Of a stretch of DNA of 64,000 nt, positions 27,674 through 49,781 are shown piece by piece (the stretch's first letter is position 1; each line of letters opens with the position of its first letter). The notes beneath the pieces were generated by a model. That model searched no databases and was not told the DNA's origin. It worked only from the letters and a program-made list of their open reading frames with translations. The position numbers and the translations under genes are program-made. The stretch is from Stappia sp. TSB10P1A. GTDB lineage: Bacteria > Pseudomonadota > Alphaproteobacteria > Rhizobiales > Stappiaceae. The stretch lies in NCBI RefSeq assembly GCF_900185725.1, contig NZ_FYAU01000013.1:62001-126000 (forward strand), in the 5' to 3' direction.

Positions 27674-28561
27674 TCAAGGGTCGAGGGCGGCAGGCCGCGC
27701 GCCGCTGCGGTATCCCACGACGAGACAGGAGGCGATGATCAATCCGGCCCCGGCCATGGCGACAGCGTCCGGGATTTCGCCAAAGGCGAAATAGGCGATT
27801 GCGGCGCTGAAGGGCAGGCGTGCGAAGTCGAACTGCATCACCGTGCTGGCCGGTGCGGCCCGGAAGGCGAGAAGCATGGTCACGCGCCCGGTGTACATCA
27901 GGCCGGCGATCAGGGCGATCCAGACCAGCGTGGCGACCGAGGGCAGCCCCCATACCCAGACGGCCGGCAGGAAGCCGACCAGCATCGGGCTCAGCGTCAT
28001 CATGGCGGCGGCGCGGCGGGTGCTGTCCACGCCCATGATCTGTTTCGACAGGATGTAGAGACCGGACATGCCGACGGTCGCCAGGAGCACCGCGATCGTG
28101 CCGCCATCGACGACGGCAAAGCCCGGCTTGACGATCAGCAGCACGCCGAGAAACCCGGCGAAGATCGCGGCCCAACCGAGCGGATGCACCTGTTCGCCGA
28201 AGAGCAGACCCGCACAGGCGGTGACGATGATCGGCGCCGCGAAGCTGATGGCGGTCGCCTCGGCAAGCGGCACATGGGCGAGGGCGTAGAACCACGACAG
28301 GTTGGAAAACCCGCCGAAGGCGGCCGCGATCACGTAAAGCCTTATGCGCCGCGTGCGGTGCTGCGGCGGGGCCGGAAGCCGCAGCGCGGGCCAGACCAGC
28401 AGGAAGATGGCGGCGTTGGTCAGGAAGCCGATCTGGAAAGGATGCAGGTCGGAGGCCACCTTCGGGATCACTGCGTTGCCGCAGGAGATGCAGGCCGTGC
28501 TCAGGATCATCCAGCAGATGCCATGACGCACCGTGGCGTGCGCCGGAAGGAGGCTGTTCAT
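27674..28561 (-). CDS. EamA-family (DMT) transporter 1
   Basis: 295 residues, about ten transmembrane helices in two EamA repeats (residues about 14-145 and 155-285). Repeat features include AFGGFSNLSWFYALAHVPLAEATAISFAAPI and RAAPASTVMQFDFARLPFSAAIAYFAFGEIPD. Such proteins usually export amino acids or metabolites; the substrate is unknown. It is downstream of the GntR-FCD gene on the same strand but 310 bases away. An ATTGAATACAAT element 100 bases before the start suggests its own regulated promoter. Confidence 0.88.
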   Translation of the reverse strand: MNSLLPAHATVRHGICWMILSTACISCGNAVIPKVASDLHPFQIGFLTNAAIFLLVWPALRLPAPPQHRTRRIRLYVIAAAFGGFSNLSWFYALAHVPLAEATAISFAAPIIVTACAGLLFGEQVHPLGWAAIFAGFLGVLLIVKPGFAVVDGGTIAVLLATVGMSGLYILSKQIMGVDSTRRAAAMMTLSPMLVGFLPAVWVWGLPSVATLVWIALIAGLMYTGRVTMLLAFRAAPASTVMQFDFARLPFSAAIAYFAFGEIPDAVAMAGAGLIIASCLVVGYRSGARPAALDP

Positions 28562-28871
28562 GGGCGTAAACGGACCAGTTGGAGCGGACTGCCGACAGGG
28601 CAGGCGGGAACATCGACGGCACGCCGGCCACTCGGGCCGACAGGCGGACGTCCCGTTCAGATTGAATACAATATTTGAAAAGGCAAGATAAATGTGTGCA
28701 ACTTCGGCGGTTGCGAGACGCCTCTCGCCGGCGGCCGGACAAGGGCTTCGGTGCGGCGGATGGTCGATCGCGCGGGTATTGCCGCGCGGCCGGGCAGGCG
28801 CCTGGGACGCGTCGGGAGGATGGAGGTGCGGAAGGGCCCTCGTTCCTGGGGCCGGGCCCTGGGGCAGGGCC
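28562..28871. other. Region between gntR stop and EamA transporter 1 start
   Basis: 310 bases. The part nearest the transporter (28655-28695) is strongly AT-rich and carries the candidate operator at 28661-28672. The part nearest gntR has AGGGCCCT at 28833-28840 and 28866-28873, with another GGGCCC at 28854-28859, giving alternative GC hairpins just after the gntR stop. These may act as a terminator, but there is no T-run. No gene was seen. Confidence 0.5.
28661..28672. promoter_or_regulatory. Candidate GntR-FCD operator before EamA transporter 1
   Basis: ATTGAATACAAT, inverted half-sites ATTG and CAAT around AATA, occurs identically at 41296-41307. The position is 100 bases before the transporter start codon. 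FCD regulators commonly bind AT-rich TTGTATACAA-like palindromes. Assignment to the neighbouring GntR is inference. Confidence 0.5.
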
Positions 28872-29588
28872 CTAGACCGCGACCATCCGGCCCTTGCTGC
28901 GCGGGCGCCGCCGCTCGGCTTCGGACATTTCCTGCTCGCGGAAATACTCCAGCATGCGCTGGGAGCCGCGGCGGACATGCTCCTGCGACAGGGCTTCGGC
29001 ACGGGCGCCCTGGCCCTGCAGGATCGCCTTGAGGATGTACTCGTGATCCTCGTGGGCGCGGGCGATGAAGGCGAAGTCGAAGACGTCGCGTTTGATCGTC
29101 TCGATGCGCGGCAGATTGCGGGTGCGGTCGAGCATCTCCGCCAGGTGCTCGTTGCGCGCGGCGCAAATGATCGCCTGGTGGAAGGCGTTGTTGAGGTCGC
29201 TCAGCTTGCGGATCGCGTCGGGTCCGTCGGGTCCGCGGGCGATCACCTCGTCCGTTTCCGCGACGAGGCGATGCAGGGTGCCGCGGGCCTCGTCGCTGAC
29301 GCCGGCCTCGGCGGCAAGGCGGGCCGCCAGCCCTTCCAGCGAGCTGCGCACGTCATACACGCCGGCGATGTAGTCCGCGTTGAAGGCGCGGACAACGAAG
29401 CCGGCATTGGGCCGATAGACGACGAGACCGTCGCTCGCCAGATGGTTCAGCGCCGCGCGCACGGGGGTGCGCGAGGTGCCGAGTTCCGACGCGAGATCGA
29501 CCTCGTTGAGCCGCGAGCCGGGTTCGTAGTGCCCGTTGATCAGGCGCTCCCGCAGTTTCGTCTTCACTTCCTGACCGCGCGTTGCCAC
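28872..29588 (-). CDS. GntR-family regulator with FCD domain
   Basis: 238 residues. N-terminal winged helix-turn-helix (about 8-70, LNEVDLASELGTSRTPVRAALNHLASDGLV) and C-terminal FCD ligand/metal domain (about 78-215, with LNNAFHQAIICAARNEHL). FCD regulators typically respond to small organic acids or amino-acid-like effectors and repress catabolic operons. It is last in the amidase/ABC cluster, 110 bases after amidase 1. TACAA-type motifs in that gap (29630-29639, 29687-29698) suggest autoregulation. Confidence 0.9.
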   Translation of the reverse strand: MATRGQEVKTKLRERLINGHYEPGSRLNEVDLASELGTSRTPVRAALNHLASDGLVVYRPNAGFVVRAFNADYIAGVYDVRSSLEGLAARLAAEAGVSDEARGTLHRLVAETDEVIARGPDGPDAIRKLSDLNNAFHQAIICAARNEHLAEMLDRTRNLPRIETIKRDVFDFAFIARAHEDHEYILKAILQGQGARAEALSQEHVRRGSQRMLEYFREQEMSEAERRRPRSKGRMVAV

Positions 29589-29629
29589 CTGGTTCTCCCT
29601 GACCCATCGTCTTGTTGCGAGTGGGCTGC

Positions 29630-29698
29630 CTTATACAAGCTGGAGCCAGGGCTGGCAACGTACGCAATCCGACCAAGTGTTGCCCTGTTGTATTCCGA
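29630..29698. promoter_or_regulatory. Two partial operator-like motifs in the gntR promoter
   Basis: CTTATACAAG (29630-29639) and, read on the reverse strand, TCGGAATACAAC (29687-29698) share the TACAA core with ATTGAATACAAT; the second matches 8 of 12 positions. They lie 42 and 99 bases before the gntR start. Confidence 0.35.
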
Positions 29699-31009
29699 TC
29701 AGGCGACCAGTTTGTCGTCGAGGGCCGGGGCGATGGCCTCGGCGATGGCGAGCATGCGGGCATCCGACAGCCGGGGTCCGACGATCTGCACGCCGACGGG
29801 CAGCCCGTTCGGTCCGCTGTGGCAGGGAATGGCAACGCAGGGCGCATGCAGCAGGGTCCACATTGCATTCATCACCCAGTTGCCGGTGGTGTCCAGACCG
29901 GGAGGCGCCTCGCCGGGCGCGGCGAGCGTCACGATGGCGTCGAGCTGACCGCCGAACAATCCGTCGAAAAGCGCTCGGCAGCGGGCGGCAAGATTGACGA
30001 AGCCGAGATAGGTTTCCGGTGTGATGCCCTCGCGGTTCTCCACCTTGTCCCGGAAGTCCTGGTGCAGGAGGGCATGGCCCGAGAGATATTCGGCGAGGAA
30101 CTGTGCTCGTCCCTCCATCGTCATGATCGCCCACTGGGCGTCGTTGAGGGCGGAGAACTCCTCGGGCAGGTCGAGATCGAAGACTGTCGCGCCGGCCCCG
30201 CCCAGACGCCGGCCGGCGAGTTCCAGCGCCTCGACGCCTTCCGCTGCCGCATGGCTCCAGTTGTGGCTGCGGACGACGCCGATCTTCAGCGCGCCGATGC
30301 TCTCCGGCTCCGCATCGTCGATGCCGGGAAGGCGGAAGGCCTTCGCCACCAGGGTGAGATCCTTCGGCGAGCGCCCATACCAGCCGAGCGTGTCGAGCGA
30401 GGGCGAATATTGCCGCGCGCCGGACCACGAGACGACCCCGAGGGTGGGCTTCAAGGCATAGACGCCGTTGAACGAGGCGGGCCGGATCAGCGAACCGCCG
30501 GTCTGGGTGCCAAGGGCGAGCGGCACCTGAAAGTCGCCGACCGCCGCGCCCGATCCCGAGGACGAGCCGCCCGGCGTGGTGCCCGGCTTCATCGGGTGAT
30601 GGGTCAGGGCCTTGCGACCTCCGGCGGCGAACTCCACCGTGTCGGTCTTGCCGAGGACGAGGCCGCCGGTGGCCCGGATGACCCTGACGCAATCCGCGTC
30701 ATGGCTCGGCCGGTTGTCGAAATAGGCCGGCGAGTTGTTGGTGGTCGGCATGTCCGCCGTGTCGATCATGTCCTTGATGCCGAAGGGCAGGCCATGAAGG
30801 GGCCCGAGCGAGCCGCGCGCGACGCGGATCTTGTCGAGTTCGCGGGCGCGCCGGATCGCAGCGTCCGGATCGACATAGGTCCACGCCTTGACCGCCGGGT
30901 CCCGCTCGCTGATGCGGGTGAGACAGGATCGGGTCAGGTCCTCGACGCTCAGTTCGCCCTTTTCGATGAGGCGGGCCGCCTCGCTTGCAGTCAGTCGACA
31001 GGCTTCCAT
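29699..31009 (-). CDS. Amidase-signature family amidase 1
   Basis: 436 residues with the full Ser-cisSer-Lys triad: Lys79 (FGIKDM), Ser149 (PGGSSSGSG) and nucleophile Ser173 (TQTGGSLIRPAS). It hydrolyses a carbon-nitrogen amide bond; the substrate is unknown. It differs from amidases 2 and 3 in being shorter, with an unrelated C-terminus ending DDKLVA. It follows the 65-residue AtzG/GatC-like gene by 42 bases, so the two may form a heteromeric enzyme. It is cytoplasmic, with no signal peptide. Confidence 0.9.
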   Translation of the reverse strand: MEACRLTASEAARLIEKGELSVEDLTRSCLTRISERDPAVKAWTYVDPDAAIRRARELDKIRVARGSLGPLHGLPFGIKDMIDTADMPTTNNSPAYFDNRPSHDADCVRVIRATGGLVLGKTDTVEFAAGGRKALTHHPMKPGTTPGGSSSGSGAAVGDFQVPLALGTQTGGSLIRPASFNGVYALKPTLGVVSWSGARQYSPSLDTLGWYGRSPKDLTLVAKAFRLPGIDDAEPESIGALKIGVVRSHNWSHAAAEGVEALELAGRRLGGAGATVFDLDLPEEFSALNDAQWAIMTMEGRAQFLAEYLSGHALLHQDFRDKVENREGITPETYLGFVNLAARCRALFDGLFGGQLDAIVTLAAPGEAPPGLDTTGNWVMNAMWTLLHAPCVAIPCHSGPNGLPVGVQIVGPRLSDARMLAIAEAIAPALDDKLVA

Positions 31010-31051
31010 GGCAGTCCTCGTGCAACAGAGAGAGGTTTGACGGGCAGGGCG

Positions 31052-31249
31052 TCAGGTCAGCGGAACACGGAAGACCGGGGCCGGCTCATCGCTCTTGCGC
31101 GGCATGCGAGGGATGGCGGCGCTGGCCAGGGCGACCTTGTCGGCGATCTCGCGCATGCGCTCCAGATGCGCAGGTTCAAGCCTGGTGAGGCCATAGCGCG
31201 CGGCATAGGCGGCGATTTCGTCGATGGTCCAGGGGGTGGTGTCGGTCAT
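31052..31249 (-). CDS. AtzG/GatC-like small amidase-associated protein 1
   Basis: 65 residues. Two helices (WTIDEIAAYAARYGLTRL and AHLERMREIADKVALAS) are followed by a tail with DEPAPVFRVP. The layout of helix pair plus (D/V)EPxxVF tail resembles GatC and AtzG (DUF4089), small partners that stabilise amidase-signature enzymes. AtzG is known to bind AtzE in the cyanuric acid pathway. It sits between amidase 2 (25 bases upstream) and amidase 1 (42 bases downstream), so either could be its partner. The assignment is by pattern, not search. Confidence 0.6.
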   Translation of the reverse strand: MTDTTPWTIDEIAAYAARYGLTRLEPAHLERMREIADKVALASAAIPRMPRKSDEPAPVFRVPLT

Positions 31250-31274
31250 GGGATAGGCTCCTTGCAGGACAGGA

Positions 31275-32705
31275 CTAGAGAACCGGACGTTCGGCGCGCC
31301 AGGGCGTCGCCGCTTCATAGGCGCGGGCGACCCGGTAGACGGTCGCCTCGTCGAACCAGCGGCCGACGATCTGCGCGCTGGTGGGCATGCCGTCCGCATC
31401 GAAGCCGTTGCAGATCGAGAGAGCCGGGTGCCCGGTGGCGTTGAAGATCGAGGTGGCCGCCCCGAAGGTGAATTTCGTCAGCGTCTCCTGGTCGTCGAAG
31501 GTCGGCGCGGTCAGGAACGTGCAAGGGGCGAGCACGGCATCGCAGGCGCTGAGGACGGCGTCGGTCGACTGGGCGAGTTCGCGCCGGCGGCGCTGGGCGG
31601 CGATATAGTCGACGGCGCGCATGGTGAAGCCGGCGGTCATCTTGTCGCGCAGGGCCTTGCCCATCAGGTCGGCGCGCTCGAGAAAATCGCGCTCATGGAT
31701 CGAATAGGATTCGCCCCAGTTGATCGCGCCGACGATCTGGCGATAGCCCGACAGGGGGGCCGGCAGCGAGATCTCGACAAGCCTTGCGCCGAGGTCCTCC
31801 AGCACCGCCTCCATGGCCTCCAGGTTCGCCCTGGTGTCCGGCTGCATCGAGGGGGCATCCGGGCCGAGGTCGCGGATCACGCCGATCACCATGCCGGCAA
31901 TGCCGGCGCCGATCCCTTGCAGGTAGTCGGGGACGAGCCTGTCTGCCGATCCGGGATCGCGCGGGTCATGGCCGGCGATGGTGCGCAGAACGAGGGCGTT
32001 GTCCTCGCAGGTCCAGGTGAGCGGGCCGGCGACGTCCAGCGACCAGCAGTTCGGCAGGATGCCGGCCCGGCTGACCACGCCGTAGGTTGCCTTCATGCCC
32101 TGAACGCCAGCGGCCGCGGCCGGCAGACGCACCGAGCCGCCGGTGTCCGAGCCAAGCGCGAACATGGCACTGCCGGCCGCGACCGCAACGCCCGCCCCGG
32201 TCGAGGAGCCGCCGGTGAAGCGGTCGGTGTTCCAGGGGTTGCGGGCGAGCGGGAAGGGCAGATCGTCATGGATCTCGCCGGTGCCTGTGCCGTATTCCCA
32301 GGTGTTGAGCTTGCCGAGCAGGATCGCGCCGGCGGCGGTCAGGCGCTCGATGGCCGTTGCGGTCTCGTCGGCAACATAGTCCAGCATCAGGCGCGAGGCG
32401 CCGGTCGTGCGCACGCCGACGACGTGGTAGTTGTCCTTTACGGCGAAGGGAATACCGTGAAGCGGCCCCTTGTAGCGGCCGGCGGCGATGTCGGCCTCCG
32501 CCTGGCGCGCGGCCGCCAGCGCCTCGTCGCCAAGCACGGTGATATAGGCGTGGAGACGGTCCTCCGTCGCGGCGATGCGCGCGAGAAACGCCTCCACCAG
32601 TTCGACCGGCGACAGGCGACGCGCGGCGATCAGGCGTGACGCCTCCGTGATCGTCAGATGCACGAGTTCGGGCGCGGCGGGCGCAAGCTTGGGCATGGCT
32701 TTCAT
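31275..32705 (-). CDS. Amidase-signature family amidase 2
   Basis: 476 residues. Triad: Lys90 (FAVKDNYH), Ser167 (TGGSSTGAG), nucleophile Ser191 (DTGGSVRLPA). Landmarks such as GKLNTWEYGTGTGE and a C-terminal AYEAATPWRAERPVL are shared with amidase 3, so the two are paralogues and probably arose by tandem duplication. The ATG overlaps the amidase 3 stop (ATGA), a coupled junction. No signal peptide. Substrate unknown; the resemblance of the TWEYGTG block to that in the paralogue suggests related ligands. Confidence 0.92.
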   Translation of the reverse strand: MKAMPKLAPAAPELVHLTITEASRLIAARRLSPVELVEAFLARIAATEDRLHAYITVLGDEALAAARQAEADIAAGRYKGPLHGIPFAVKDNYHVVGVRTTGASRLMLDYVADETATAIERLTAAGAILLGKLNTWEYGTGTGEIHDDLPFPLARNPWNTDRFTGGSSTGAGVAVAAGSAMFALGSDTGGSVRLPAAAAGVQGMKATYGVVSRAGILPNCWSLDVAGPLTWTCEDNALVLRTIAGHDPRDPGSADRLVPDYLQGIGAGIAGMVIGVIRDLGPDAPSMQPDTRANLEAMEAVLEDLGARLVEISLPAPLSGYRQIVGAINWGESYSIHERDFLERADLMGKALRDKMTAGFTMRAVDYIAAQRRRRELAQSTDAVLSACDAVLAPCTFLTAPTFDDQETLTKFTFGAATSIFNATGHPALSICNGFDADGMPTSAQIVGRWFDEATVYRVARAYEAATPWRAERPVL

Positions 32706-34111
32706 AGCGTCGGTCTCCTCAGTCTCCAGGTGGTCGCCGCTTCGTAGGCGGCCGCGATCTTCAGGATGTTGGCTTCCGCGAAGCGACGGCCGACGATCTG
32801 CCAGTGAAGCGGCAGACCCGAGCCCGTGAAGCCGTTGCATTGCACCAGGGACGGATGCCCGGAGAGCGAAAAGGGTGTGAGCATCGTGTCGGCGGTGAAG
32901 GCCGTCATCTCGGGCTCGACGCCAAGGCGCGGGGCGACATGAAAGGCGCCGAAGGTCACCACCGCGTCATAGGTCCGGATGGTCCGGTCGAGGGCATCGG
33001 CGACCATCCGGCGCACGCGCTGCGCGGCGAGATAGTCGCTTGCCCGGGTCATCGCCCCGCGCATGAGCTTGTCGCGCAGGGCGAAACCCATGTCCTGCGG
33101 GCGTTCGCGAAGCTCGGCCTCGTGGATTGCGGCGGACTCGCTGGAGCCGATGACCGAGGCGGCGAGGAAGCATTCGGCCGCAGGCACGGGAAGGGAAATC
33201 TCGAAAAGCTCGGCACCGAGCTCCTCGAGCACCGTAAGTCCCTCGGTGAAGGCGGTGACGAGGGCGGCGTCGGGACCGGCCATGCCCGGACCGGGGTCGA
33301 GGATGACGCCGATGCGAAGCCCCGAAAGCGAGGCGGGGCGGGTCGGGGCGGGAGCGACCGTGGCCGACGGGCCGGCAAGCGCGCGCAGCACGAGAGCCGC
33401 GTCCTCCACCGTCCATGCGAGCGGACCGGGCACGTCCATCGAATAGCAGTTGGCGATCATGCCGGCCTTGTCGAGCAGGCCGTGGGTTGGCCGAAGACCC
33501 ACCACGCCGCAGGCTGAGGCCGGCAGGCGCACCGAGCCTGTCGTGTCGGAGCCGAGCGCGATGACGGTCGTGCCGGCGGCAACCGCGGCGCCGGCGCCTG
33601 TCGACGAGCCGCCGGCGAAACGCTGGGTGTCCCATGGGTTGCGCGTCGTCGGGATCGGCAGGTCGAAATACTCCCCGCCGTTGCCGGTGCCGTATTCCCA
33701 GGTCGACAGCTTGCCGAGCAGGATCGCACCGGCGTTCTTCATCGCCGCCACGAGGATCGCGTCACGGTCGGCCACCGTCCCGGCCATGAGCCGGGAGCCG
33801 CCGCAGGTCGGCAGACCGGCAGCGTCGTAATTGTCCTTGGCGGCGAAGGGAATGCCGTGCAGCGGCCCGCGCGAGCGCCCGGCCGCGATCTCGGCCTCGG
33901 CGTGGCGCGCCGCCGCGAGCGCGCGCTCGGCATCGACATAGACGAAGCTGTGGATTGTCCCGTCGACGGCCTCGATACGCCTGAGGCACGCCTCGACCAG
34001 ATCCACCGGCGACAGGCGGCCTGCGGCGATCTCCCGGGCGGCGGCGGCAGCCGTCGGCGGATGGTCGGGCACAACGGGCGACGGCGCGGCTGCTGCGGTC
34101 GTTTGGCTCAT
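32702..34111 (-). CDS. Amidase-signature family amidase 3
   Basis: 469 residues. Triad: Lys92 (FAAKDNYD), Ser169 (AGGSSTGAG), nucleophile Ser193 in DTTGSVRLPAS, where the usual DTGGS is DTTGS. It is a close paralogue of amidase 2 (GKLSTWEYGTGNGG, AYEAATTWRLRRPTL), with a 20-residue alanine/proline-rich N-terminus. The start overlaps the stop of the PF05145 membrane protein (ATGA), and its own stop overlaps the amidase 2 start. It is the first amidase in the operon. Confidence 0.92.
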   Translation of the reverse strand: MSQTTAAAAPSPVVPDHPPTAAAAAREIAAGRLSPVDLVEACLRRIEAVDGTIHSFVYVDAERALAAARHAEAEIAAGRSRGPLHGIPFAAKDNYDAAGLPTCGGSRLMAGTVADRDAILVAAMKNAGAILLGKLSTWEYGTGNGGEYFDLPIPTTRNPWDTQRFAGGSSTGAGAAVAAGTTVIALGSDTTGSVRLPASACGVVGLRPTHGLLDKAGMIANCYSMDVPGPLAWTVEDAALVLRALAGPSATVAPAPTRPASLSGLRIGVILDPGPGMAGPDAALVTAFTEGLTVLEELGAELFEISLPVPAAECFLAASVIGSSESAAIHEAELRERPQDMGFALRDKLMRGAMTRASDYLAAQRVRRMVADALDRTIRTYDAVVTFGAFHVAPRLGVEPEMTAFTADTMLTPFSLSGHPSLVQCNGFTGSGLPLHWQIVGRRFAEANILKIAAAYEAATTWRLRRPTL

Positions 34112-35313
34112 TTCTCGGCGTCCTTCGACAGCGACTGGGGCAGGGGTTGCAGCGCCGACTGGGGGGCGGGCTGCGGCGGGATGGGGGATGCGGGACGGCC
34201 GGCATGGCAGGCCGGGATCAGACCGATGGCGCGCATCGCCGTGAAGGCCGGCGAGATCAGCATGACCAGGATCAGGATTCGGATGACATGGAAGGCGGTG
34301 ACCACGGGGACGTTGAAGCCGAGCGCCTGCGCGGTGATCGACATTTCGGTGACGCTGCCCGGGGCGGTGGCCAGCACCATGGTGGCGATGCTCTCGTCGT
34401 CGACGAGATGGAGCAGGAAGCCGAGCGTGGCGCAGGCGAGCGTGACGAGCAGCACGTTCATCAGCGCCGCCGGCAGGAAACGCTTCATGCTGCGCAGGAC
34501 ATCCCGGCGGAACTGCGCACCGAGATAGGCGCCCATCAGCACCTGGCAGGCCATCATCAGTTCCGCCGGAACCGACGACAGATGCGCGTCGCTGGCACCG
34601 AGCGCGATGCCGACGGCGAGCGGCCCGACGATGAAGGCGGCCGTCACGTTCATCCACCGCAGCATCAGCGCCAGGGCGAGCGACAGCCCCATGGTCACCA
34701 GGAAGCCCGTCAGGTGGAAAGGGTCGGCCGAGAATGTCCAGACATGTTCGCCATGCAGGTCGAGCAGGACCATTGTCGGCGGGATCACCACCACCAGCGT
34801 GACGATGCGCATGAGCTGGCAGATGGCGATGGGGGGCATGTTCGCGCCCTGCCGCGCGCCGAGAACGCTCATTTCCGCCGGACCGCCCGGCACGGAGCAG
34901 AAGAAGGCCGTCGTGCGGTCGATGTTGCTGAGGCGCGCCAGCAGCAGCGAGGCAATGCAGCCGATCAGCAGCGTCGCGAGGGCGGCGAGCAGGATCATTG
35001 GCAGCAGCCGCAGGCTGGTTTCCGCCGCCTGGGGGGTGAAGGTGAGACCGATGCCGGTCAGCAATACGAGAACCCCGGCATCGCGCAGGCTCCGCCGCGT
35101 GCCGAGCGGCAGGCCGAGCATCGACAGGGTCGCGACCATGGCCAGCGCCCCGATCAGCCAGGGCAGCGGAACGCCGATCCACCAGGCGATGGCACCGCCG
35201 ACGCCGCCGGCAACCTGGCCGAGGGCGACGAAGGCAAGGTCGCGGGGGTTCAGCCGGAGGGCGGGTTGCCGCTCAGGCCGTGACGGGAGCAGAGACACGA
35301 TAGGCTTCCTCAT
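34108..35313 (-). CDS. AbrB/PF05145 polytopic membrane protein
   Basis: 401 residues, around ten hydrophobic segments in two similar halves; each half has the PF05145 hallmark (CSVPGGPAEMSVLG and TAPGSVTEMSITAQALG). Often annotated as an AbrB-type regulator or ammonia monooxygenase protein, it is plainly membranous and unrelated to the AbrB DNA-binding protein. A transport role is likely. The first 41 bases overlap the end of the ABC ATPase gene, and its stop overlaps amidase 3. A proline/glutamine-rich C-terminal tail (about 30 residues) is an extra. Confidence 0.82.
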   Translation of the reverse strand: MRKPIVSLLPSRPERQPALRLNPRDLAFVALGQVAGGVGGAIAWWIGVPLPWLIGALAMVATLSMLGLPLGTRRSLRDAGVLVLLTGIGLTFTPQAAETSLRLLPMILLAALATLLIGCIASLLLARLSNIDRTTAFFCSVPGGPAEMSVLGARQGANMPPIAICQLMRIVTLVVVIPPTMVLLDLHGEHVWTFSADPFHLTGFLVTMGLSLALALMLRWMNVTAAFIVGPLAVGIALGASDAHLSSVPAELMMACQVLMGAYLGAQFRRDVLRSMKRFLPAALMNVLLVTLACATLGFLLHLVDDESIATMVLATAPGSVTEMSITAQALGFNVPVVTAFHVIRILILVMLISPAFTAMRAIGLIPACHAGRPASPIPPQPAPQSALQPLPQSLSKDAEK

Positions 35314-41589: not shown

Positions 41590-41601
41590 ATTGTGTACAA
41601 A
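41590..41601. promoter_or_regulatory. Candidate GntR-FCD operator before AtzG-like 2 / amidase 4
   Basis: ATTGTGTACAAA contains the palindrome TTGT-GT-ACAA and matches the 12-mer at 41296 in 9 positions. It lies 56 bases before the start codon of the plus-strand unit, where a repressor would cover the promoter. Confidence 0.45.
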
Positions 41602-41656
41602 ACGCGCGATCATCTCCGCCGGGGATGGCGCCGAGGCACCAAAGGAGATTCAGACG

Positions 41657-41857: not shown

Positions 41858-41901
41858 CACAACGGACCTTGCTCCGAGCGCATGACGAGGGGGATTCATC
41901 C

Positions 41902-43323
41902 ATGTCCGACCTGCATTTCATGACCGCATCCGAGGCGGCCGCGCTGTTTCGCAGCGGCAAGCTCTCCCCGGTGGAACTGACCCGCGCCTATCTTGATCGC
42001 ATCGAGGCGCTCGATCACCTCATCGACAGCTACATCACCGTGACGATAGAGCGCGCCATGGCCGATGCCGGGCGCGCCGAACGCGAATTCGCTGCGGGGC
42101 TCGACCGGGGACCGATGCACGGCATTCCCTATTGCCTCAAGGACATCGTCGAGACCGAGGGCATCCTGACCACCGGCCAGTCGCGCAGTCTGGCCCAGCA
42201 CATACCGACGAAGGACGCGACCCTGGAGGCGCGTCTGCGCGCTGGTGGCGCGGTGCTTCTCGGCAAGACGACAACCTGGGAGTTTGCCCATGGCGGGCCG
42301 TCCTGGGACGTGGTGGCGCCGCCGGCGCGCAACCCCTGGAACCGGGAGAACCATCCGGCCGGGTCGAGTTCCGGCACGGGCGCGGCGATTGCCGCCGGCA
42401 TGGCGGCGACGGGCATCGGGACGGATACGGGCGGTTCGATCCGCCTGCCCGCTGCCGTCTGCGGCATTGCCGGGCTGAAGCCGACCTACGGGCGGGTGAG
42501 CCGGACCGGTGTCCTGCCGAACAGTTTCACCCATGACCATGCCGGACCAATGGCCTGGACCTCGCTGGACGTGGCAATGATGCTCGCGGTGATCGCGGGC
42601 CACGACCCGCTCGATCCGGGAAGCGGCGAGGTGCCGGTGGCGGGCGATCTTGCCCAACTCGACGAGCGGGTGCTGAGCGGATTGACCATCGGCGTGCCCT
42701 ATCGCTGGTTCGAGGAGGAGGCGCCGTCGTCGGCCGAGGTGCGAGAGGCGTTCGATGCTGCCCTTTCGGCCATGGTCGATGCCGGAGCGCGGGTGGTTCC
42801 GGTCGAGCTGCCGAGCCTCGAGAGCTATGCGGATGCGAAGAAGACGATCGCCATGGCCGAACTCTATTCCATCCATCACAAGACGCTGAAGGAAACGCCG
42901 CATCTGCTCGGCGAGAGCCTCCGCTACCGCATCCAGTGCGGCGCGCTGATCCGGGCGGAGGACTATGTGCAGGCGATGCGCTGGCGCACCCAGTTGTCGC
43001 GCGTGACGCAGGCGGTCTTCGACACGGTCGACATTCTCGCCATGCCGACAGCGGAACCGGCCGGGCGGCTGGAGGCCACGCCGCATTCCTGGCTGTTCAA
43101 GCACAAGTCCCTGACGACCCCGTTCAACACCACCGGCAACCCGGCCTTGAGCGTATGCAACGGCTTTTCCAAGGCCGGCATGCCCTTGTCGCTGCAACTT
43201 GTCGGCAAACCGTTCGACGACCGTCTTGTCTTGTCCGTCGGCAGCGCCTACGAGCAGATCACGCCATGGCGGGCTAAACGTCCGGTTCTTGCGGGCGCGG
43301 AACCTGCCAGCAGCGCTGCCTGA
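41902..43323 (+). CDS. Amidase-signature family amidase 4
   Basis: 473 residues. Triad: Lys80 (YCLKDI), Ser155 (PAGSSSGTG, with Ala in place of the first Gly) and nucleophile Ser179 (DTGGSIRLPAAV). The C-terminus AYEQITPWRAKRPVL resembles amidases 2 and 3, but GKTTTWEFAHGGPSWD differs from their WEYGTG block, so the substrate may differ. It is preceded by the 66-residue GatC/AtzG-like gene and followed after 77 bases by an EamA transporter, probably one unit. Confidence 0.92.
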   Translation: MSDLHFMTASEAAALFRSGKLSPVELTRAYLDRIEALDHLIDSYITVTIERAMADAGRAEREFAAGLDRGPMHGIPYCLKDIVETEGILTTGQSRSLAQHIPTKDATLEARLRAGGAVLLGKTTTWEFAHGGPSWDVVAPPARNPWNRENHPAGSSSGTGAAIAAGMAATGIGTDTGGSIRLPAAVCGIAGLKPTYGRVSRTGVLPNSFTHDHAGPMAWTSLDVAMMLAVIAGHDPLDPGSGEVPVAGDLAQLDERVLSGLTIGVPYRWFEEEAPSSAEVREAFDAALSAMVDAGARVVPVELPSLESYADAKKTIAMAELYSIHHKTLKETPHLLGESLRYRIQCGALIRAEDYVQAMRWRTQLSRVTQAVFDTVDILAMPTAEPAGRLEATPHSWLFKHKSLTTPFNTTGNPALSVCNGFSKAGMPLSLQLVGKPFDDRLVLSVGSAYEQITPWRAKRPVLAGAEPASSAA

Positions 43324-43400
43324 GCGCATTCAAAGGTCTCAATCGGGGGGCGGAGCTGTTTCGCCCCTCGCTCACTCTCCTCCGGCAAGAAGATCACGGC

Positions 43401-44297
43401 GTGTTCTCCGATTGGCTCTGGATTGTCTTCACCCTCATCGCCTCGGCCGCGCAAACGGTCCGCAACTCCATGCAGAAGGAACTGACGGGCACCCTCGGCA
43501 CCGTCGGCGCGACCCAGGTCCGGTTTTTTTACGGACTGCCGTTCGCGGCGGGCTTTCTTGCCATGGCCGTCTTCGCCACCGGTGAAGCGCCGCCGTTCTC
43601 GGAGTTGGCGCAGGTGCCCTGGACGGCGGCCGGGGCGCTGGCGCAGGTCTTTGCCACCGGGATGATGCTGGCGGCGATGAGAACCCGTTCCTTCGTCGTG
43701 GCGATCACCTATACCAAGATCGAGCCGGTGCTGGTGCTTGGCTTCGCGGTACTGCTGCTGGGTGAAGTGCCGACACCGGTGGCCATGGCCGGTGTGTTCG
43801 TGGCGACGGCCGGCGTTGTGCTGCTGTCCTGGCCCGGACGCGGTCACTGGACCAATGGCTGGCTGCAGACGACGGCCTTTGGCCTCGGTTCCGGCGCGCT
43901 GTTCGCGGTTTCGGCGGTCTGCTACCGGGGCGGCATCCTGGCGCTGGGCGACGGCCACTTCCTGATCAATGCGTCGACGACGCTGGTGACCGCGCTCGCC
44001 CTGCAGACAGGCGTCGTGAGCCTCTATCTGTACGTCTTCGACCGGGCGGTCCTGCACCAGCTCGTTGCCGCCTGGCGCTCATCGCTCGCAGCGGGTTTCT
44101 TCGGCGCGCTGGCTTCCCAGTTCTGGTTTCTGGCGTTTTCCCTGCAAAGCGCCTCGCTTGTGCGGGCGTTGGCGCTGATCGAGATCGTGTTTGCCCAGAT
44201 CGTCTCCTTGCGCCTGTTCCGGCAGAAGGACACGCCGCGCGAGATCGCCGGCATGGTGGTGATCACGGCCGGCGTGCTGATGATCCTGCTGGCGTGA
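43401..44297 (+). CDS. EamA-family (DMT) transporter 2
   Basis: 298 residues, about ten transmembrane helices. The start MFSDWLWIVFTLIASAAQTVRNSMQKEL (first half shown) resembles EamA proteins that begin directly in the membrane. The second repeat begins near WTNGWLQTTAFGLGSGALFAVSAV. The GTG at 43401 is the first codon of the membrane helix. Substrate unknown; following amidase 4 in the same direction, it may export or import a reaction product. It converges on the TRAP permease gene. Confidence 0.86.
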   Translation: MFSDWLWIVFTLIASAAQTVRNSMQKELTGTLGTVGATQVRFFYGLPFAAGFLAMAVFATGEAPPFSELAQVPWTAAGALAQVFATGMMLAAMRTRSFVVAITYTKIEPVLVLGFAVLLLGEVPTPVAMAGVFVATAGVVLLSWPGRGHWTNGWLQTTAFGLGSGALFAVSAVCYRGGILALGDGHFLINASTTLVTALALQTGVVSLYLYVFDRAVLHQLVAAWRSSLAAGFFGALASQFWFLAFSLQSASLVRALALIEIVFAQIVSLRLFRQKDTPREIAGMVVITAGVLMILLA

Positions 44298-44329: not shown

Positions 44330-45616
44330 TCAGTTGGCCCCCATCACCAGGTTCGGCAGCCACAGGGAGATCTGCGGAAACAGCAGCAGCATCGCCAACG
44401 CGCTGACCAGCGGAATGAAATAGGGCAGCGTGGCGCGCACGATGTCTTCGAGCGGCGCCCCCGAGATGCGCGCCACCACGAACAGGCCGATCCCGAGCGG
44501 CGGGGTGGCGATGCCGAGGATCAGCGACATCTGCAGGATGATGCCGAAATGCACCCGGTCGATCCCATAGGCATCGACCAGGGGAAGCAGGATCGGCACC
44601 AGCAGAAGCTTGATCGTCACTCCGTCGATGAAGCAGCCGAGCATCAGGACAAGGGCCATGATCGACAGCAGGAACACCAGCCGGGAATCGATCAGGTTGG
44701 GCAGGGACCGGGCGAGATCCTGAGGGATCTGCTCGATCGCCAGAAGCCAGCCCATGCTGCCGGCAAAGCCGATGATGATCATGATCATCGAGGTGATCAG
44801 GATGGTTTCGGTGAGCGCCCGCCACAGGGCGGCGAAGGTCAGCGTGCGGAAAAATACCCCGAGAAGAATGACATAGGCGGAGGCGAGAACCCCGGCCTCC
44901 GACGCGGTGGTGGTGCCGGTGAGAATGCCGCCCATGATGATCGCCGGTGCGACCAGGGCAAAGGTGCCGCCGATGGTGTGTTTCCAGATCTCCCTGGCGC
45001 TGGCGCGCGGCTGCCGGGGGAAGTCCACCCGTGTCGCCAGAACCCGATTGAACGCCATCAGGCTGGCCGCGATCAGCAGCCCAGGGACCACGCCGGCCAG
45101 AAACATGCGGGCGACGGAGGTGTTGGACAGGAAGGCATAGACCACGAGCGGCACGGAGGGCGGAATGAACGGGGCGACGATCGCCGAGACGACGGTGATC
45201 GCCGAAGAGAAGGAGGCGGTATAGCCGCGCTCCCGCATCGCCTTGATCTCCACCGCCCCAAGGCCGGCGATGTCGGCAACGGCTGCTCCCGTGCCGCCGG
45301 CCAGCATGACGGAAGCCAGCACGTTGACCTGTGCCAGTCCGGCGCGGAAATGCCCCACCAGCGCGTTGGCGAGATTGAAGATCTTCTCGGTGATCCCGAT
45401 GGCATTCATCAGGTTGCCCGCGAGGACGAAGAAGGGGATGGCGAGAAGCGAGGTGTTCGACGCGCTCTCCAGCACCTTCATCGGCACGATCCACAGGATG
45501 TCCGAAAAGCCGCTCATCACCAGCGCCGCGACGACAGCCAGGCCGATCGCCATGGTGATCGGCGTGCGCAGGGCGACGAGCCCCAGGAACAAGGCGAAAA
45601 GGACGACGGCCGTCAT
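44330..45616 (-). CDS. dctM: TRAP transporter large permease (DctM-like)
   Basis: 428 residues, about twelve transmembrane segments. DctM landmarks include SNTSLLAIPFFVLAGNLMNAIGI, VLASVMLAGGTGAAVADIAGLG, FIPPSVPLVVYAFLSNTSVARMFLAG and LILGIATPPLGIGLFV. It carries the sodium-coupled translocation path. The ATG overlaps the dctQ stop (ATGA at 45613-45616). It is last in a nit-rraA-dctPQM unit. Confidence 0.94.
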   Translation of the reverse strand: MTAVVLFALFLGLVALRTPITMAIGLAVVAALVMSGFSDILWIVPMKVLESASNTSLLAIPFFVLAGNLMNAIGITEKIFNLANALVGHFRAGLAQVNVLASVMLAGGTGAAVADIAGLGAVEIKAMRERGYTASFSSAITVVSAIVAPFIPPSVPLVVYAFLSNTSVARMFLAGVVPGLLIAASLMAFNRVLATRVDFPRQPRASAREIWKHTIGGTFALVAPAIIMGGILTGTTTASEAGVLASAYVILLGVFFRTLTFAALWRALTETILITSMIMIIIGFAGSMGWLLAIEQIPQDLARSLPNLIDSRLVFLLSIMALVLMLGCFIDGVTIKLLLVPILLPLVDAYGIDRVHFGIILQMSLILGIATPPLGIGLFVVARISGAPLEDIVRATLPYFIPLVSALAMLLLFPQISLWLPNLVMGAN

Positions 45617-46131
45617 TCGCGTGCCTCCGCGAGCGCATGGGGATCGCGGCCCTCGATGAAGCCGATCACCGCAAGGCGCAGGTTCAGGACGTATTGCAGG
45701 ACGATCAGGGCGCAGGACGCCCAAAGCGGGGCGGCCAGCCAGTAGCGCTGGAACCCGACCAGGTCGATCCGCCCGACCTGGCGCGGGATCAGTATCGGTG
45801 CCTGCCGCAGGACGAGCAGCATCAGCCCGATGACGAGGAGCGCGACAAGGATCGCGACAAGCGCCGCGGGGCGGGCCGGCAGCCGTCTGGTCACCACATC
45901 GATGGTGATGTCCTGTCCGCGGCGGAAGATCACGAAGAACGCCAGGAAGATCGCCCAGACGAAGAGGACGCCCGTCCACGGGAAGACCCAGATGATCCCC
46001 TTGTCCCAGATCAGCCGGGACAGGATGTTGGCGAGGTTGATCGCCAACATCGTCAGCAGGAGGCCGTTGGCGCCGGCCAGAAAGAGCCGCTCGGCCCAGC
46101 CAAGGCCGGCGTCAAGGGCGCGCCAGACCAT
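45613..46131 (-). CDS. dctQ: TRAP transporter small permease (DctQ-like)
   Basis: 172 residues with four transmembrane helices and the DctQ pattern (NLLLTMLAINLANILSRL-like first helix, VFVWAIFLAFFVIFRRGQDITIDVV). It forms a membrane complex with DctM. The start shares one base with the stop of the binding-protein gene (TGATG), and the stop overlaps dctM, so all three TRAP genes are tightly coupled. Confidence 0.9.
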   Translation of the reverse strand: MVWRALDAGLGWAERLFLAGANGLLLTMLAINLANILSRLIWDKGIIWVFPWTGVLFVWAIFLAFFVIFRRGQDITIDVVTRRLPARPAALVAILVALLVIGLMLLVLRQAPILIPRQVGRIDLVGFQRYWLAAPLWASCALIVLQYVLNLRLAVIGFIEGRDPHALAEARE

Positions 46132-47141
46132 CAGTTCGAGGGCCGGGTGGCGTTGATCGCGTCCAGAAGGCCTTCCGGCAAGGTGCCGGCGACATTCATG
46201 CCGGTGTAGAACTCGGCCATCTTGGCGACGACCGGCCCCGTATCCATGACGGTGAAGGTCACGCCTTTTTCCGCCATGCGTGCGAGGGACTCGTTCGCGG
46301 TGGCATCGGTCTTGGCGGCGAACTCTGCCGCGACCTCGTCATAGGCCTCCAGAATCTGCGCGCGCGTGGTCTCGTCGAGCCCGTTCCAGGCACGCGCATT
46401 GGTCATGAAGGCCAGCCCTTGCGGATACTCGTCATGGCGCACGATGTGCGGGGCGACTTCGTAGAAGCGCATCGACTCGACAAGAGCGATGGGACTGTTG
46501 ACCGCCTCGACGATGCCGCGTCCGATCGACTCGTAGGTCTCCGTCCAGGCGAGGGTGCGGACCTCGGCGCCGAGATGCCGCCAGGCGGCCGCCGCCAACT
46601 CGTCGGGATGCATGCGCAGCTTCAGGCCGGCGATGTCGTCGAGCGTGGTGACGGGCTTGCTGGTGACCATGACGCGATAGGGGCCGCGGACCATCTTGGT
46701 GGGGTCGCCGATGACGGTGACGCCCGCCTCGGCCTCGACCTTGGTCATCCAGCCCTTGACGAGATCGGAGCCCTGGAAGGCGGACCAGTGCTCGCGGCTT
46801 TCGAACAGGAAGGGAGAGCCGGTGAAGGCGATCTCCGGAACCCATTTCTGCAGATAGGTCGAGCCTTCCGGATAGATGTGAACCGTGCCGAGTTGGAGCT
46901 GCTCAAGGATGGCCTCGTCCTTGCCGAGCTGCTCGGCCGGATAGACCTGGACCGTGAGCTTGCCGTCGGTCTTGGCGGCGATGCGATCGGCAACCGCCTG
47001 GAAGATCTGGCCCTCGATCGACTCGGCCGGCATCTTGTGCGCCATGCGCCAGACTTCGGCACTGACCGCCGCGGTGCTGCTTCCGGCGAAAGCGAATGCC
47101 GCCAGCGCGGCAGTGGCGAGAGAAATCCTGAAGCTCAACAT
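46131..47141 (-). CDS. dctP: TRAP transporter solute-binding protein (DctP family)
   Basis: 336 residues. A signal peptide (MLSFRISLATAALAAFAFAG then SSTAAVSA) precedes mature EVWRMAHKMPAESIEGQI. TRAP landmarks are GKLTVQVYPAEQLGKDEAILEQLQLGTVHI and GLKLRMHPDELAAAAWRHLGA, in which the conserved ligand Arg (GLKLR) that salt-bridges a carboxylate is present. The ligand is therefore probably a carboxylic acid. ATG 47141 is supported by GGAGGGG just upstream. The gene is 61 bases downstream of the RraA-like gene. Confidence 0.92.
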   Translation of the reverse strand: MLSFRISLATAALAAFAFAGSSTAAVSAEVWRMAHKMPAESIEGQIFQAVADRIAAKTDGKLTVQVYPAEQLGKDEAILEQLQLGTVHIYPEGSTYLQKWVPEIAFTGSPFLFESREHWSAFQGSDLVKGWMTKVEAEAGVTVIGDPTKMVRGPYRVMVTSKPVTTLDDIAGLKLRMHPDELAAAAWRHLGAEVRTLAWTETYESIGRGIVEAVNSPIALVESMRFYEVAPHIVRHDEYPQGLAFMTNARAWNGLDETTRAQILEAYDEVAAEFAAKTDATANESLARMAEKGVTFTVMDTGPVVAKMAEFYTGMNVAGTLPEGLLDAINATRPSN

Positions 47142-47202
47142 GATCAAACCCCTCCGTTTTGTCTTTGGTTTGCGCTAGTCCAGTACCGGTGCGGCCTCCG
47201 TC

Positions 47203-47868
47203 TCAGGCTCTGAGCTTGTTCATCACCAGCTTGCTCGCCCCGGAAATCTCGGGCAGTTGCTCTCCCTTCTCCAACCGCGCGAGCAGTTCGATCTCCCGCT
47301 CCTGCATGCCAAGCGCCCGGTCGGCGACCTCCTCGATCTGCCAGGGCTTCAGGAACAGAACGCCGCTTTCGTCGGCGAGAACCGCATCGCCTGGCTCGAC
47401 CGAGACGCCGCCGACCGAGACGGGCCCGTTGAGCAGACCTTCAAGACCGAGAAGCTTGGTCGTGATCGGAGACGGTCCCCGGCACCAGAGCGGCATGCCG
47501 ACCCGGCGCACCTCGTTGAAGTCTGTCGCCGGACCGTCGATCACGGCTCCGACCACACCGCCGAGCTTTGCGGCGTTGGTGATGACGCCGCCCCAGCAGG
47601 CGTGATGGGAATCGCCGCAGCGGTCGATCACCAGGAAGTCGCCCGGCCGGACCAGCGACATCAGATGATGCAGCAGAGTGGAATCCGCGCCGGGAATACG
47701 AAGGGTCACCGCCGTTCCGGCCACCCGCTTCTCGGGCAGGACGGCGCGCAGGCCGATATCGGCGAACTGGCTGTGCAGCACATGGCCGACAGTGGCGGTT
47801 TCCACCTTTTCGAGTTTTGCGATCAGCGCGGGATCAATCTGGTCGGGCATCGGGCGCAGGTCGAACAT
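47203..47868 (-). CDS. RraA-like protein / putative HMG-type aldolase
   Basis: 221 residues, RraA/4-hydroxy-4-methyl-2-oxoglutarate aldolase fold. The family core is GDFLVIDRCGDSHHACWGG, then GGVVGAVIDGPATDFNEVR. Active aldolases normally read DGxxRD here; this protein has DGPATD (Thr115 in place of Arg, Asp116 kept), so aldolase activity is doubtful. Such genes are frequent beside catabolic transporters. It lies 13 bases after the nitrilase-family gene in one operon. Confidence 0.8.
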   Translation of the reverse strand: MFDLRPMPDQIDPALIAKLEKVETATVGHVLHSQFADIGLRAVLPEKRVAGTAVTLRIPGADSTLLHHLMSLVRPGDFLVIDRCGDSHHACWGGVITNAAKLGGVVGAVIDGPATDFNEVRRVGMPLWCRGPSPITTKLLGLEGLLNGPVSVGGVSVEPGDAVLADESGVLFLKPWQIEEVADRALGMQEREIELLARLEKGEQLPEISGASKLVMNKLRA

Positions 47869-47881
47869 GGCCGCGGCTCCT

Positions 47882-48682
47882 TCAAAGGACGTGATGATTG
47901 TGGACGGGGATCGACGCGCGCACTTTCGCGGCGTAGGCATCGTCGATCCTGCCGGTGACATGTCCGGTATGGTCGCCCACCTGTGCCACCACATGGCCCC
48001 AGGGATCGATCAGCATCGAATGGCCGTAGCAGGCCTTCTTGCCGCCGGCATGCGTGCCGAACTGGCCGACGGCGAGGAAATGGGTTCCGGTCTCGATGGC
48101 GCGGGCGCGGGCGAGAACCTCCCAGTGGTCCTTGCCGGTCATCAGGGTGAAGGCGGCCGGCAGGACGATCACCTCCGCTCCCTTGTCGCGCAGGGCGCGG
48201 AACAGCTCGGGGAAGCGGATGTCGTAGCAGATCGCGCAGCCGACGGTGGTGCCGTTCACCTCATAGGTGACGACCTGGTCGCCGGCCGCGATCGTGGCAC
48301 TTTCGCGATAGCTCATGCCGCCGGGAACGTCGACGTCGAACAGGTGGATCTTGCGATAGCGCGCGAGTTCGCTGCCATCGGGGGCGAAGACCAGCGTGGT
48401 GTTGTGATGGGCGTTTCCGGCCTTCTCGACGATCGATCCGCCATGCAGCGTGATGCCGTGGCGGCGTGCCATGTCCTGCATCGCGCGATAGGCATCGCCG
48501 TCCGGGAATTCCTCGGCGCTGGCGTGGAATTCTTCGGGGCCTTCGCCCAGCATCGCCCAATATTCGGGAAGGACGATAAGGTCTGGCCCGTCCTTCGCTG
48601 CCTCGGCGACGAGCGCTTCAGCCTGGGCGATGTTCGCCTGCTTGTCGGACTGGGAATTCATCTGTATCAGGGCGACTTTCAC
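47882..48682 (-). CDS. Nitrilase-superfamily carbon-nitrogen hydrolase
   Basis: 266 residues with the complete Glu-Lys-Cys triad: Glu40 (IVLPEYW), Lys111 (YRKIHLFD) and Cys152 (CAICYDIRFPE). The YRKIHLFDVD and CYDIRFPELFR patterns place it with the Nit1/Nit2 or omega-amidase branch, which hydrolyses alpha-keto amides such as alpha-ketoglutaramate or deaminated glutathione. In this island an amide-hydrolysing role is consistent. It is first in the nit-rraA-dctPQM unit, with a 187-base gap before the LysR gene. Confidence 0.9.
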   Translation of the reverse strand: MKVALIQMNSQSDKQANIAQAEALVAEAAKDGPDLIVLPEYWAMLGEGPEEFHASAEEFPDGDAYRAMQDMARRHGITLHGGSIVEKAGNAHHNTTLVFAPDGSELARYRKIHLFDVDVPGGMSYRESATIAAGDQVVTYEVNGTTVGCAICYDIRFPELFRALRDKGAEVIVLPAAFTLMTGKDHWEVLARARAIETGTHFLAVGQFGTHAGGKKACYGHSMLIDPWGHVVAQVGDHTGHVTGRIDDAYAAKVRASIPVHNHHVL

Positions 48683-48869
48683 GTTCAGCCTCTTTCATGA
48701 ACTGTTTCCGACAAGCATGGTTCAGCCTCCCCGATCCGGTGTCCAACGGGAAATTTTTGGGATCTTCATAAGAATTTCTTTTGCAGGCTAATGGTGGGGC
48801 CTCGCCTGGAGAAGACCGTATCGCCTTGGCCGGGCCGGCCGAGACGGGACGTATGTGTCGGAACCGCCG

Positions 48870-49781
48870 TCAGGCGAGAGCAGGATCGGCGCGTTGCACG
48901 AAATCCTGGGCGATGTCCCGCGCGAGCTCCGCGATGGTGGCCGGGACGAGCCGCGCCGGTCCGTCGAACCAGGTGGCGTGGAAGCGCATGGGTGGGATGG
49001 GTTGCTCGGCCTCGATCAGCACCAGTTCCTTGCGAGCAAGTTCACGTGGGGCGACGATCGGCGGGATGGTGGCGACACCGATCCCGTCGATGGTCATGCG
49101 GATGATCGTCGCGAGCGAGTTGGCGGCGAAAAAACGCGCGGTCTCGAGCCCGTTCTGTTGGAAGAAGCGGGTGATATGCGCGTGCGGCTGGCTGTTCTTG
49201 GGGAAGCAAATCACTGGATAGTCCGCGAGGCGTTCCAGGCTGACGGGCCCTGGCGGGAAACGGAGGTTGGGAGAGGCGACCCAATGGCAGGAATAGGTGC
49301 AGAGCTCGATATTGGCGTAGCTGGGCTCGAGCAACGGTCCCATGATGAGTGCCAGATCGATCTCTCCGGCGCGCAGCAGTTCCACCAGCTTGAGGCTCGT
49401 TTCCGCGGAAAACTCCAGGGTAAGGTCGGGATAGGTGTCCTTGGCGGCGCGGATCAGGTCGATCAGCCAGGTGTAGGTGATCGTGTCGATCACGCCGATC
49501 CGCAAGGTTCCCCGGATGCCCTGAGTGCCACTGACCTCGTCGACGAAGACGCGGGCGTTTCTCAGCAGCGGTTCGGCGCGGGCCAGGGCTTCGACTCCCT
49601 GCGGCGTCAGCGACAGGCGCCGGTGTTCCCGGACGAAGAGTTTTACGCCGAGTTCCGCTTCCAGCGCGGCGATGCGTGAGGAGACCGCCGCTTGCGTGGC
49701 ATTCAGCCGTTCGGCGGCCAGCGTGAAACTCTTCAGCCGCGCCACCCAGACGAACGTCTCCAGAAAGGTAAGGTTGATCAA
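48870..49781 (-). CDS. LysR-family transcriptional regulator
   Basis: 303 residues. N-terminal winged helix-turn-helix (about 4-63, LETFVWVARLKSFTLAAERLNATQAAVSSRIAALEAELG) and LysR substrate domain (about 90-295). It is transcribed in the same direction as the downstream nit-rraA-dctPQM unit, 187 bases away, so it may control that unit, but LysR regulators are more often divergent from their targets. The length is normal. Confidence 0.9.
   Translation of the reverse strand: MINLTFLETFVWVARLKSFTLAAERLNATQAAVSSRIAALEAELGVKLFVREHRRLSLTPQGVEALARAEPLLRNARVFVDEVSGTQGIRGTLRIGVIDTITYTWLIDLIRAAKDTYPDLTLEFSAETSLKLVELLRAGEIDLALIMGPLLEPSYANIELCTYSCHWVASPNLRFPPGPVSLERLADYPVICFPKNSQPHAHITRFFQQNGLETARFFAANSLATIIRMTIDGIGVATIPPIVAPRELARKELVLIEAEQPIPPMRFHATWFDGPARLVPATIAELARDIAQDFVQRADPALA

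Follow-up and report, generated by a model that had tools for sequence, protein, structure and literature searches.

An inserted block in Stappia sp. TSB10P1A carries a conserved amidase-transporter cluster beside a second conserved module

The stretch analysed here, 64,000 nucleotides of contig NZ_FYAU01000013.1 of Stappia sp. TSB10P1A (the window), contains a single insertion of about 22.4 kb (27567-49972) that lies between a phasin gene and radC and carries two probably catabolic modules. Module A (27674-44297) comprises a GntR regulator, four amidase-signature (AS) amidases (AmiA to AmiD), two small proteins (S1 and S2), an ATP-binding cassette (ABC) importer, a PF05145 membrane protein and two EamA transporters. 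Module B (44330-49781) comprises a tripartite ATP-independent periplasmic (TRAP) importer, an RraA-like protein, a Nit2-like hydrolase and a LysR regulator, and recurs independently of module A. That some 22.4 kb was inserted beside radC follows from the flanks: in blastn comparisons with the loci of four congeners (L032-L035, from G074, G075, G079 and G081) similarity to the window ends at 27566 and resumes at 49973-49976, where all four relatives have 30-41 bp. The locus of a fifth congener (G082, L036) also aligns on both flanks, less completely than the other four. The acetate kinase gene ackA and radC are adjacent in these five of the 13 congeners, and in the remaining eight the best ackA match lies away from radC. 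Visible mobile-element machinery can be ruled out, with no direct or inverted repeat of at least 10 bp common to the two 280-bp edge stretches compared and no transposase or integrase recognised by Pfam among the block's 21 predicted genes.

Pfam and NCBIfam profile scans bear out every gene class that an earlier sequence-only reading of this DNA had named for a 22-kb block. Pfam recognises four AS proteins, two EamA proteins, a GntR-FCD regulator, a PF05145 (AbrB) protein, a CN_hydrolase (CNH), an RraA-like protein and a LysR protein, together with a family 5 solute-binding protein (SBP5), two permeases, two oligopeptide-type ATPases and DctM, DctQ and DctP. The density of AS genes is well above chance, since four of the eight PF01425 matches in the genome fall inside the block. 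On the reverse strand module A runs from Eam1 (27674-28564; EamA matched in two stretches, probable start MNSLLP), which is tentatively assigned to it by an upstream palindrome and not by synteny, through the GntR regulator with its FCD domain (28872-29588), AmiA (29699-31009), S1 (31052-31249), AmiB (31275-32705), AmiC (32702-34111) and the PF05145 protein (34108-35313; TIGR03082 above cut-off) to the importer genes. These encode ATPases F (35273-36403) and D (36421-37491), permeases C (37501-38409) and B (38435-39388) and SBP5 (39542-41278), the start of which is uncertain, most relatives aligning from about residue 40-75. Divergently, on the forward strand, lie S2 (41657-41857), AmiD (41869-43323) and, at the right end of the module, Eam2 (43401-44297). 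The likely starts of Eam1 (28564), AmiC (34111) and the RraA-like protein (47868) differ from those of the longest open reading frames.

The gene order of module A is conserved elsewhere. An order-wide search with SBP5 gave matches in 65 of 397 genomes, the own genome included; taking the best match per genome, 60 loci of the 64 other genomes were surveyed (G183, G334, G216 and G394 were left out, and L181, which equals L072 in length at 82,126, is apparently that contig again). Four of these loci (G159, G333, G165 and G200) have the whole series AmiA-S1-AmiB-AmiC-PF05145-F-D-C-B-SBP, S2-AmiD being divergent, and protein identities among the full carriers are 43-84%. G159 and G333 have in addition a second AmiA, a GntR orthologue adjoining AmiA (66-68% identity) and an Eam2 orthologue behind AmiD (63-71%). 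Each amidase of the window clusters with its own G159/G333 orthologue in a maximum-likelihood tree, where AmiB forms a clade with the orthologues of all four carriers. The conserved order and this one-to-one grouping point to a cluster that is inherited or transferred as a unit. The search for the same order in related genomes was thus positive for the ABC-amidase part, and the earlier view that these genes are not accidental neighbours stands.

A second sample was obtained by scanning genome contigs with AmiD, which gave 80 AmiD-type loci (L059-L138). SBP5 is present at 55% identity or more in 13 of these, accompanied by permeases and ATPases in 12 (in the other, L065, the contig ends); within the stretches compared, AmiB reaches 60% or more in ten of the 13, and AmiA 54% or more in seven. 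Carriers include Bordetella, Achromobacter, Azorhizobium oxalatiphilum, Bradyrhizobium LHD-71 and several metagenome-assembled genomes, with a reduced form of the module A order in Azorhizobium, Bradyrhizobium and Bordetella; a relative of AmiA with 56-58% identity is present in all ten such genomes searched. Among the AmiD relatives listed (E 1e-60 or better) from 86 other genomes of the family, none exceeds 46% identity. This distribution bears on the idea that module A is a recently recruited xenobiotic pathway, degrading a man-made amide, a carbamate or a nylon oligomer. Urethanases and 6-aminohexanoate cyclic dimer hydrolase do occur among the solved relatives of the AS proteins, and the acesulfame clusters of Bosea and Chelatococcus (PMC10413263) show recruitment of AS amidases. 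The spread across alpha- and betaproteobacteria and the 43-84% identities nevertheless indicate an old cluster, and the absence of a transposase or integrase from the block's 21 predicted genes also argues against recent recruitment, which we regard as highly improbable.

Conserved order and control regions together rule out a chance neighbourhood. An AS amidase is found no more than about 9 kb from the importer in 36 of the 60 SBP5 loci, but in none of 40 control regions drawn from 40 of those genomes. The importer is likewise accompanied by Asp/Glu racemase-family genes (21/60 versus 0/40), M20 hydrolases (9/60 versus 0/40) and ureidoglycolate lyase (7/60 versus 0/40); the loci are concentrated in a few genera, so that the p-values of these comparisons are not independent. 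Isochorismatase was rejected as a regular partner (0/60 and 0/40 with three queries), as was hydantoinase (3/60 versus 2/40 with two queries); the other classes were sought with single query sequences, and for none of them does a miss equal absence, isochorismatase and hydantoinase included. Isochorismatase is annotated in Azospirillum and Aminobacter records, and its domain occurs in one member of a family common to five Bosea/Roseomonas-type loci. G165 and G200 have another importer of this family adjoining module A (L283, L284), forming a larger amide region with asparaginase, isochorismatase-like, EamA, PF05145 and GntR relatives.

All four AS proteins of module A keep the Lys, Ser, Ser triad, as had been read from the DNA; the nucleophile motif is T-T-G-S in AmiC and T-G-G-S in the other three. 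The best solved relative of AmiA is malonamidase E2 from Bradyrhizobium japonicum (PDB 1ock; 197.5 bits, with the next family at 127.6), and the nucleophile context is of the same type, TGGSLIRPA in AmiA and TGGSVIRPA in 1ock. AmiA also shares with malonamidase E2 the arginine three residues past the nucleophile (S-x-x-R), which presumably binds the substrate carboxylate. Since AmiA is nearest to malonamidase E2, with the same S-x-I-R context, and likely malonate genes are found elsewhere in the genome, the half-amide of a short dicarboxylate is a fair guess, but no more than that, at its last-step substrate. On another contig (L174, G000:C63:248000-264000), GntR-FCD, TRAP and malonyl-CoA decarboxylase genes lie together in what is likely a malonate operon, so that the organism could use malonate. 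AmiD has GatA as its best solved relative, followed by 6c62, listed as a biuret hydrolase. AmiB and AmiC (50% identical) are sister groups in the tree and were duplicated within the cluster; because they are such paralogues, four amidases need not be four steps. Import and then hydrolysis of amides, as first proposed, is the natural reading for module A.

The small proteins S1 (65 residues) and S2 (66 residues) are homologous to each other (hhalign 97.5%), and S1 has a conserved EPA-x-x-F tail. In the AmiD-type loci, each of the 48 homologues of S1 or S2 lies no more than 150 bp from an AS amidase on the same strand. Pfam gave no match for S1 and one far below cut-off for S2, and the AtzG-like domain PF13318 matches neither. 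The fold of S2 may resemble that of GatC, and hhalign relates S2 to AtzG weakly (E 0.0032 for one pair); the best match of its sequence profile in the PDB is a haloacid dehalogenase (E 0.006), with GatC at E 0.72. A GatC/AtzG fold is suggested for S2, and both proteins are probably GatC/AtzG-like partners. The two small proteins previously noted do exist.

What does this system import? The importer is of the oligopeptide type, with SBP_bac_5, two BPD permeases and two ATPases with oligo_HPY. One might accordingly think of a peptide system, with amidated peptides entering through an Opp/Dpp-type importer and the AS enzymes serving as peptide amidases, which are indeed distant solved relatives. 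Pfam shows no peptidase in the window's module A, however, AmiA is akin to an enzyme acting on a three-carbon substrate, and the racemase, M20 and ureidoglycolate lyase genes near related importers are not suggestive of peptides, so that we find this reading very doubtful. Those same neighbours speak rather for a ureide- or hydantoin-type salvage, in which an N-carbamoyl compound would be imported and the AS enzymes would split off carbamoyl groups, like AtzE with 1-carboxybiuret, and not act on dicarboxylic half-amides; the presence of 6c62 among the solved relatives of AmiD points the same way, as does an Acetobacteraceae relative of module A (L061:3-1521, 10680-13233) with two hydantoinase-looking amidohydrolase genes and an asparaginase in its cluster. 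Against it, Pfam finds none of these enzymes in the window's module A, most of the racemase and M20 genes belong to loci with an importer of about 46-57% identity, and AmiA is nearer to malonamidase. We see salvage of this kind as possible, if rather unlikely. A barbiturate/cyanuric acid pathway was also considered and provisionally set aside: the ring-opener family PF09663 (AtzD/barbiturase) has no match in the genome, though it was equally silent in every control genome. Among the block's 21 predicted genes, Pfam and NCBIfam found no AtzH (DUF3225), no AtzD-type gene and no AS protein at the level of allophanate hydrolase.

The promoters of module A appear to be marked by a palindrome. The sequence ATTGAATACAAT occurs at 28661-28672, upstream of Eam1, and at 41296-41307, before the SBP operon, and a similar sequence, ATTGTGTACAAA, at 41590-41601, before S2-AmiD. 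The pattern TTGNNTACAA is found five times in the window, where 0.12 occurrences would be expected, an estimate generous to the pattern, which was framed after the sites seen in aligned relatives; these sites lie before Eam1, SBP5 and S2, within a permease gene and near a tRNA. The form TTGNATNCAA occurs three times against 0.36 expected. The four module A loci of other genomes each have one copy of ATTGNATNCAAT, in every case between SBP5 and S2, and the pattern is absent from 780,340 bases of control sequence. Azorhizobium has similar palindromic sites beside GntR and AmiD. The Bordetella and Achromobacter loci lack the palindrome at the corresponding place and have a common gene instead, the one scanned member of which is TetR-type. 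The GntR regulator is a candidate binder of ATTGNATNCAAT. The known FadR-type operator pattern was rejected, with only one match, in L179. A promoter scan gave one match, overlapping the 41296 palindrome, and shuffled sequences give as many. A copy of TTGAATACAA at 1650-1659, within a branched-chain permease gene, is probably due to chance.

Module B, all on the reverse strand, encodes the TRAP large permease DctM (44330-45622), the small permease DctQ (45613-46131), the binding protein DctP (46131-47147), the RraA-like protein (47203-47868), CNH (47882-48682) and the LysR regulator (48870-49781), relatives of which (33-59% identity) occur near CNH and RraA genes. CNH has its Glu-Lys-Cys triad intact (LPEYW, RKIHLFD and ICYDIRF), as previously noted. 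The triad and its closest kinship, with nitrilase homolog 2 (2w1v) as nearest solved relative, fit the Nit2/omega-amidase type; against the deaminated glutathione amidase model NF043013 it scores 194.9 bits, with a cut-off of 500. The Arg-Asp motif of the RraA-fold HMG/CHA aldolases, in which we take the arginine to be catalytic, is seen in all three PDB relatives shown. It is Thr-Asp in the window protein and in all six CNH-linked relatives aligned (L139-L142, L144 and L145), so that the CNH-paired proteins could possibly form an RraA subfamily with other chemistry.

The LysR-CNH-RraA set combines with exchangeable importers: ABC in Shinella and Aminobacter, major facilitator superfamily in Paraburkholderia and TRAP in Nitratireductor and Roseinatronobacter. 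It is complete in five of seven annotated plasmid records; the other two, from Agrobacterium, have RraA-CNH without LysR and CNH without RraA, respectively. CNH is matched at E <1e-75 in 22 of the 397 genomes, and of 20 loci surveyed from the 21 other genomes (G216 left out) nine have the full set and 11 do not. Seven of the nine carry polyamine-type ABC genes and two (G272 and G222) TRAP genes, G272 having the same order as the window at 59-81% identity. Conversely, no CNH or RraA reaching 40% identity occurs in any of the 80 AmiD-type loci within the stretches compared.

Do the two modules then serve one pathway? The sequence-only reading had proposed a single pathway for the whole island, and a specific form of it would have the Nit2-like enzyme finish a carboxylate-amide product of module A, the TRAP importer taking up the same intermediate from outside. 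Both modules do lie in the same inserted block, and G165 and G200 each carry, on a single contig, module A and, some 55 kb away, an ABC version of the LysR-CNH-RraA set. Apart from the common block itself, this proximity is the one indication of a functional connection, and it perhaps reflects a single event, the two genomes being of the same genus. The modules have separate regulators, and no copy of the palindrome, which is confined to module A, is found in module B. The LysR-CNH-RraA set moreover occurs on plasmids and, in the CNH survey, in genomes of which seven of nine are outside the four module A carriers found, just as no CNH or RraA at the 40% level is seen in the compared stretches of the AmiD-type loci. 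Such a coupling we judge improbable, and as the principal reading a single island-wide pathway is rejected, given the recurrence of module B apart from module A and without its palindrome. What had been called one island is thus one insertion, with sharp borders near 27567 and 49972, that contains two independently recurring units.

The only Rfam match over 26500-53000 is a tRNA-Leu(UAA) at 51806-51890, a gene that is continuous both here and in L034. In L032:101-392, L033:84-375 and L035:100-391 the same gene carries an insert of about 207 bp directly after the first anticodon base, matching a group I intron family at 42-46 bits (gathering score 50; E about 5e-8 or better). In these three congeners its orientation relative to radC is opposite to that in the window.

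We consider it rather probable that the block combines a module A that imports and hydrolyses a bis-amide or ureide with a module B for a carboxylate amide. In module A the GntR-FCD regulator would act on three promoters through ATTGNATNCAAT, and the importer, judged by its family, would bring in a small polar compound with at least two amide or ureido bonds. AmiD with S2, and AmiB/AmiC with S1, would form GatCA/AtzEG-like heteromers of a catalytic AS subunit and a small GatC-like partner, freeing ammonia or a carbamoyl fragment to leave a short dicarboxylic half-amide, which AmiA, as a malonamidase-type enzyme with S-x-x-R, would convert to the dicarboxylate. The EamA and PF05145 proteins may carry substrate or product across the membrane. 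In module B, under LysR, the TRAP system would import a carboxylate amide, from which the Nit2-like enzyme would release ammonia, the RraA-fold protein processing the product. The sequence data establish the gene content, the insertion, the conserved gene order, the joint inheritance of the amidases, their intact triads, the conserved palindrome and the adjacency of the small proteins to amidases; the substrates, complexes, order of steps and regulation are inferred.

More speculatively, module A may encode an undescribed pathway in which several AS amidases with dedicated GatC-descended partners dismantle one imported bis-amide or ureide as far as a short dicarboxylate, GatCA-like pairs being a general catabolic device of which AtzEG was the first known case, joined here by an RraA/omega-amidase module whose RraA-fold protein, without the aldolase arginine, performs new chemistry; this wider view is a tentative one, and we would not expect it to hold in full. 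If borne out, these readings would mean that a recurring set of GatC-like small proteins, too short and divergent for the Pfam models tried, partner catabolic amidases, and heterologous assays of one of these amidases by itself would then fail or mislead. With a clear gene order, a candidate operator and an importer, the substrate of module A is directly testable.

We conclude that module A is a real, conserved and apparently uncharacterised catabolic cluster, ordinary in kind, beside a second conserved module. No complete named pathway was found to fit, as first stated, and no report on the cluster's substrate was found in the open-licence literature, in which a search on methylenediurea also gave nothing useful. 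Within that literature the description "undescribed" holds for substrate and function, but clusters of atzG-atzE(-atzH) with ABC transporters and amidases were already in print in 2018 (PMC6219798). Malonamidase E2 is the closest solved relative of AmiA, sharing the Lys-Ser-Ser triad and the TGGS-x-IRPA context, whereas AmiA sits within an ABC-amidase cluster. Among solved proteins and NCBIfam families, CNH is nearest to Nit2/omega-amidase and deaminated glutathione amidase; it falls below the NCBIfam cut-offs and is paired with an RraA-like protein and a TRAP importer. GatCAB tRNA amidotransferase similarly combines an AS subunit with a small subunit, GatC, which S2 may resemble in fold; Pfam detects no GatB-type gene in the block, and elsewhere, on contig C46, a GatC gene lies with a strong AS match. 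The acesulfame clusters share an ABC importer, an AS amidase and a TauE-like protein, but differ in their gene set, composite transposon and metallo-beta-lactamase-type sulfatase (PMC10413263). Comparable in plan is AtzG-AtzE, the 1-carboxybiuret hydrolase of Pseudomonas sp. ADP and relatives (PMC6219798; PDB 6c62), in which a small non-catalytic partner is encoded beside an AS amidase, the atzG-atzE-atzH clusters of some betaproteobacteria having ABC transporters and further amidases nearby. AmiB, AmiC and AmiD are 32-36% identical to AtzE and score 236-262 bits with the AtzE models TIGR02715 and NF006631, below the cut-offs of 425.75 and 461. Compared with those clusters, the block in Stappia is a variant without AtzH, distinguished by two small proteins, four amidases and a palindrome of its own.

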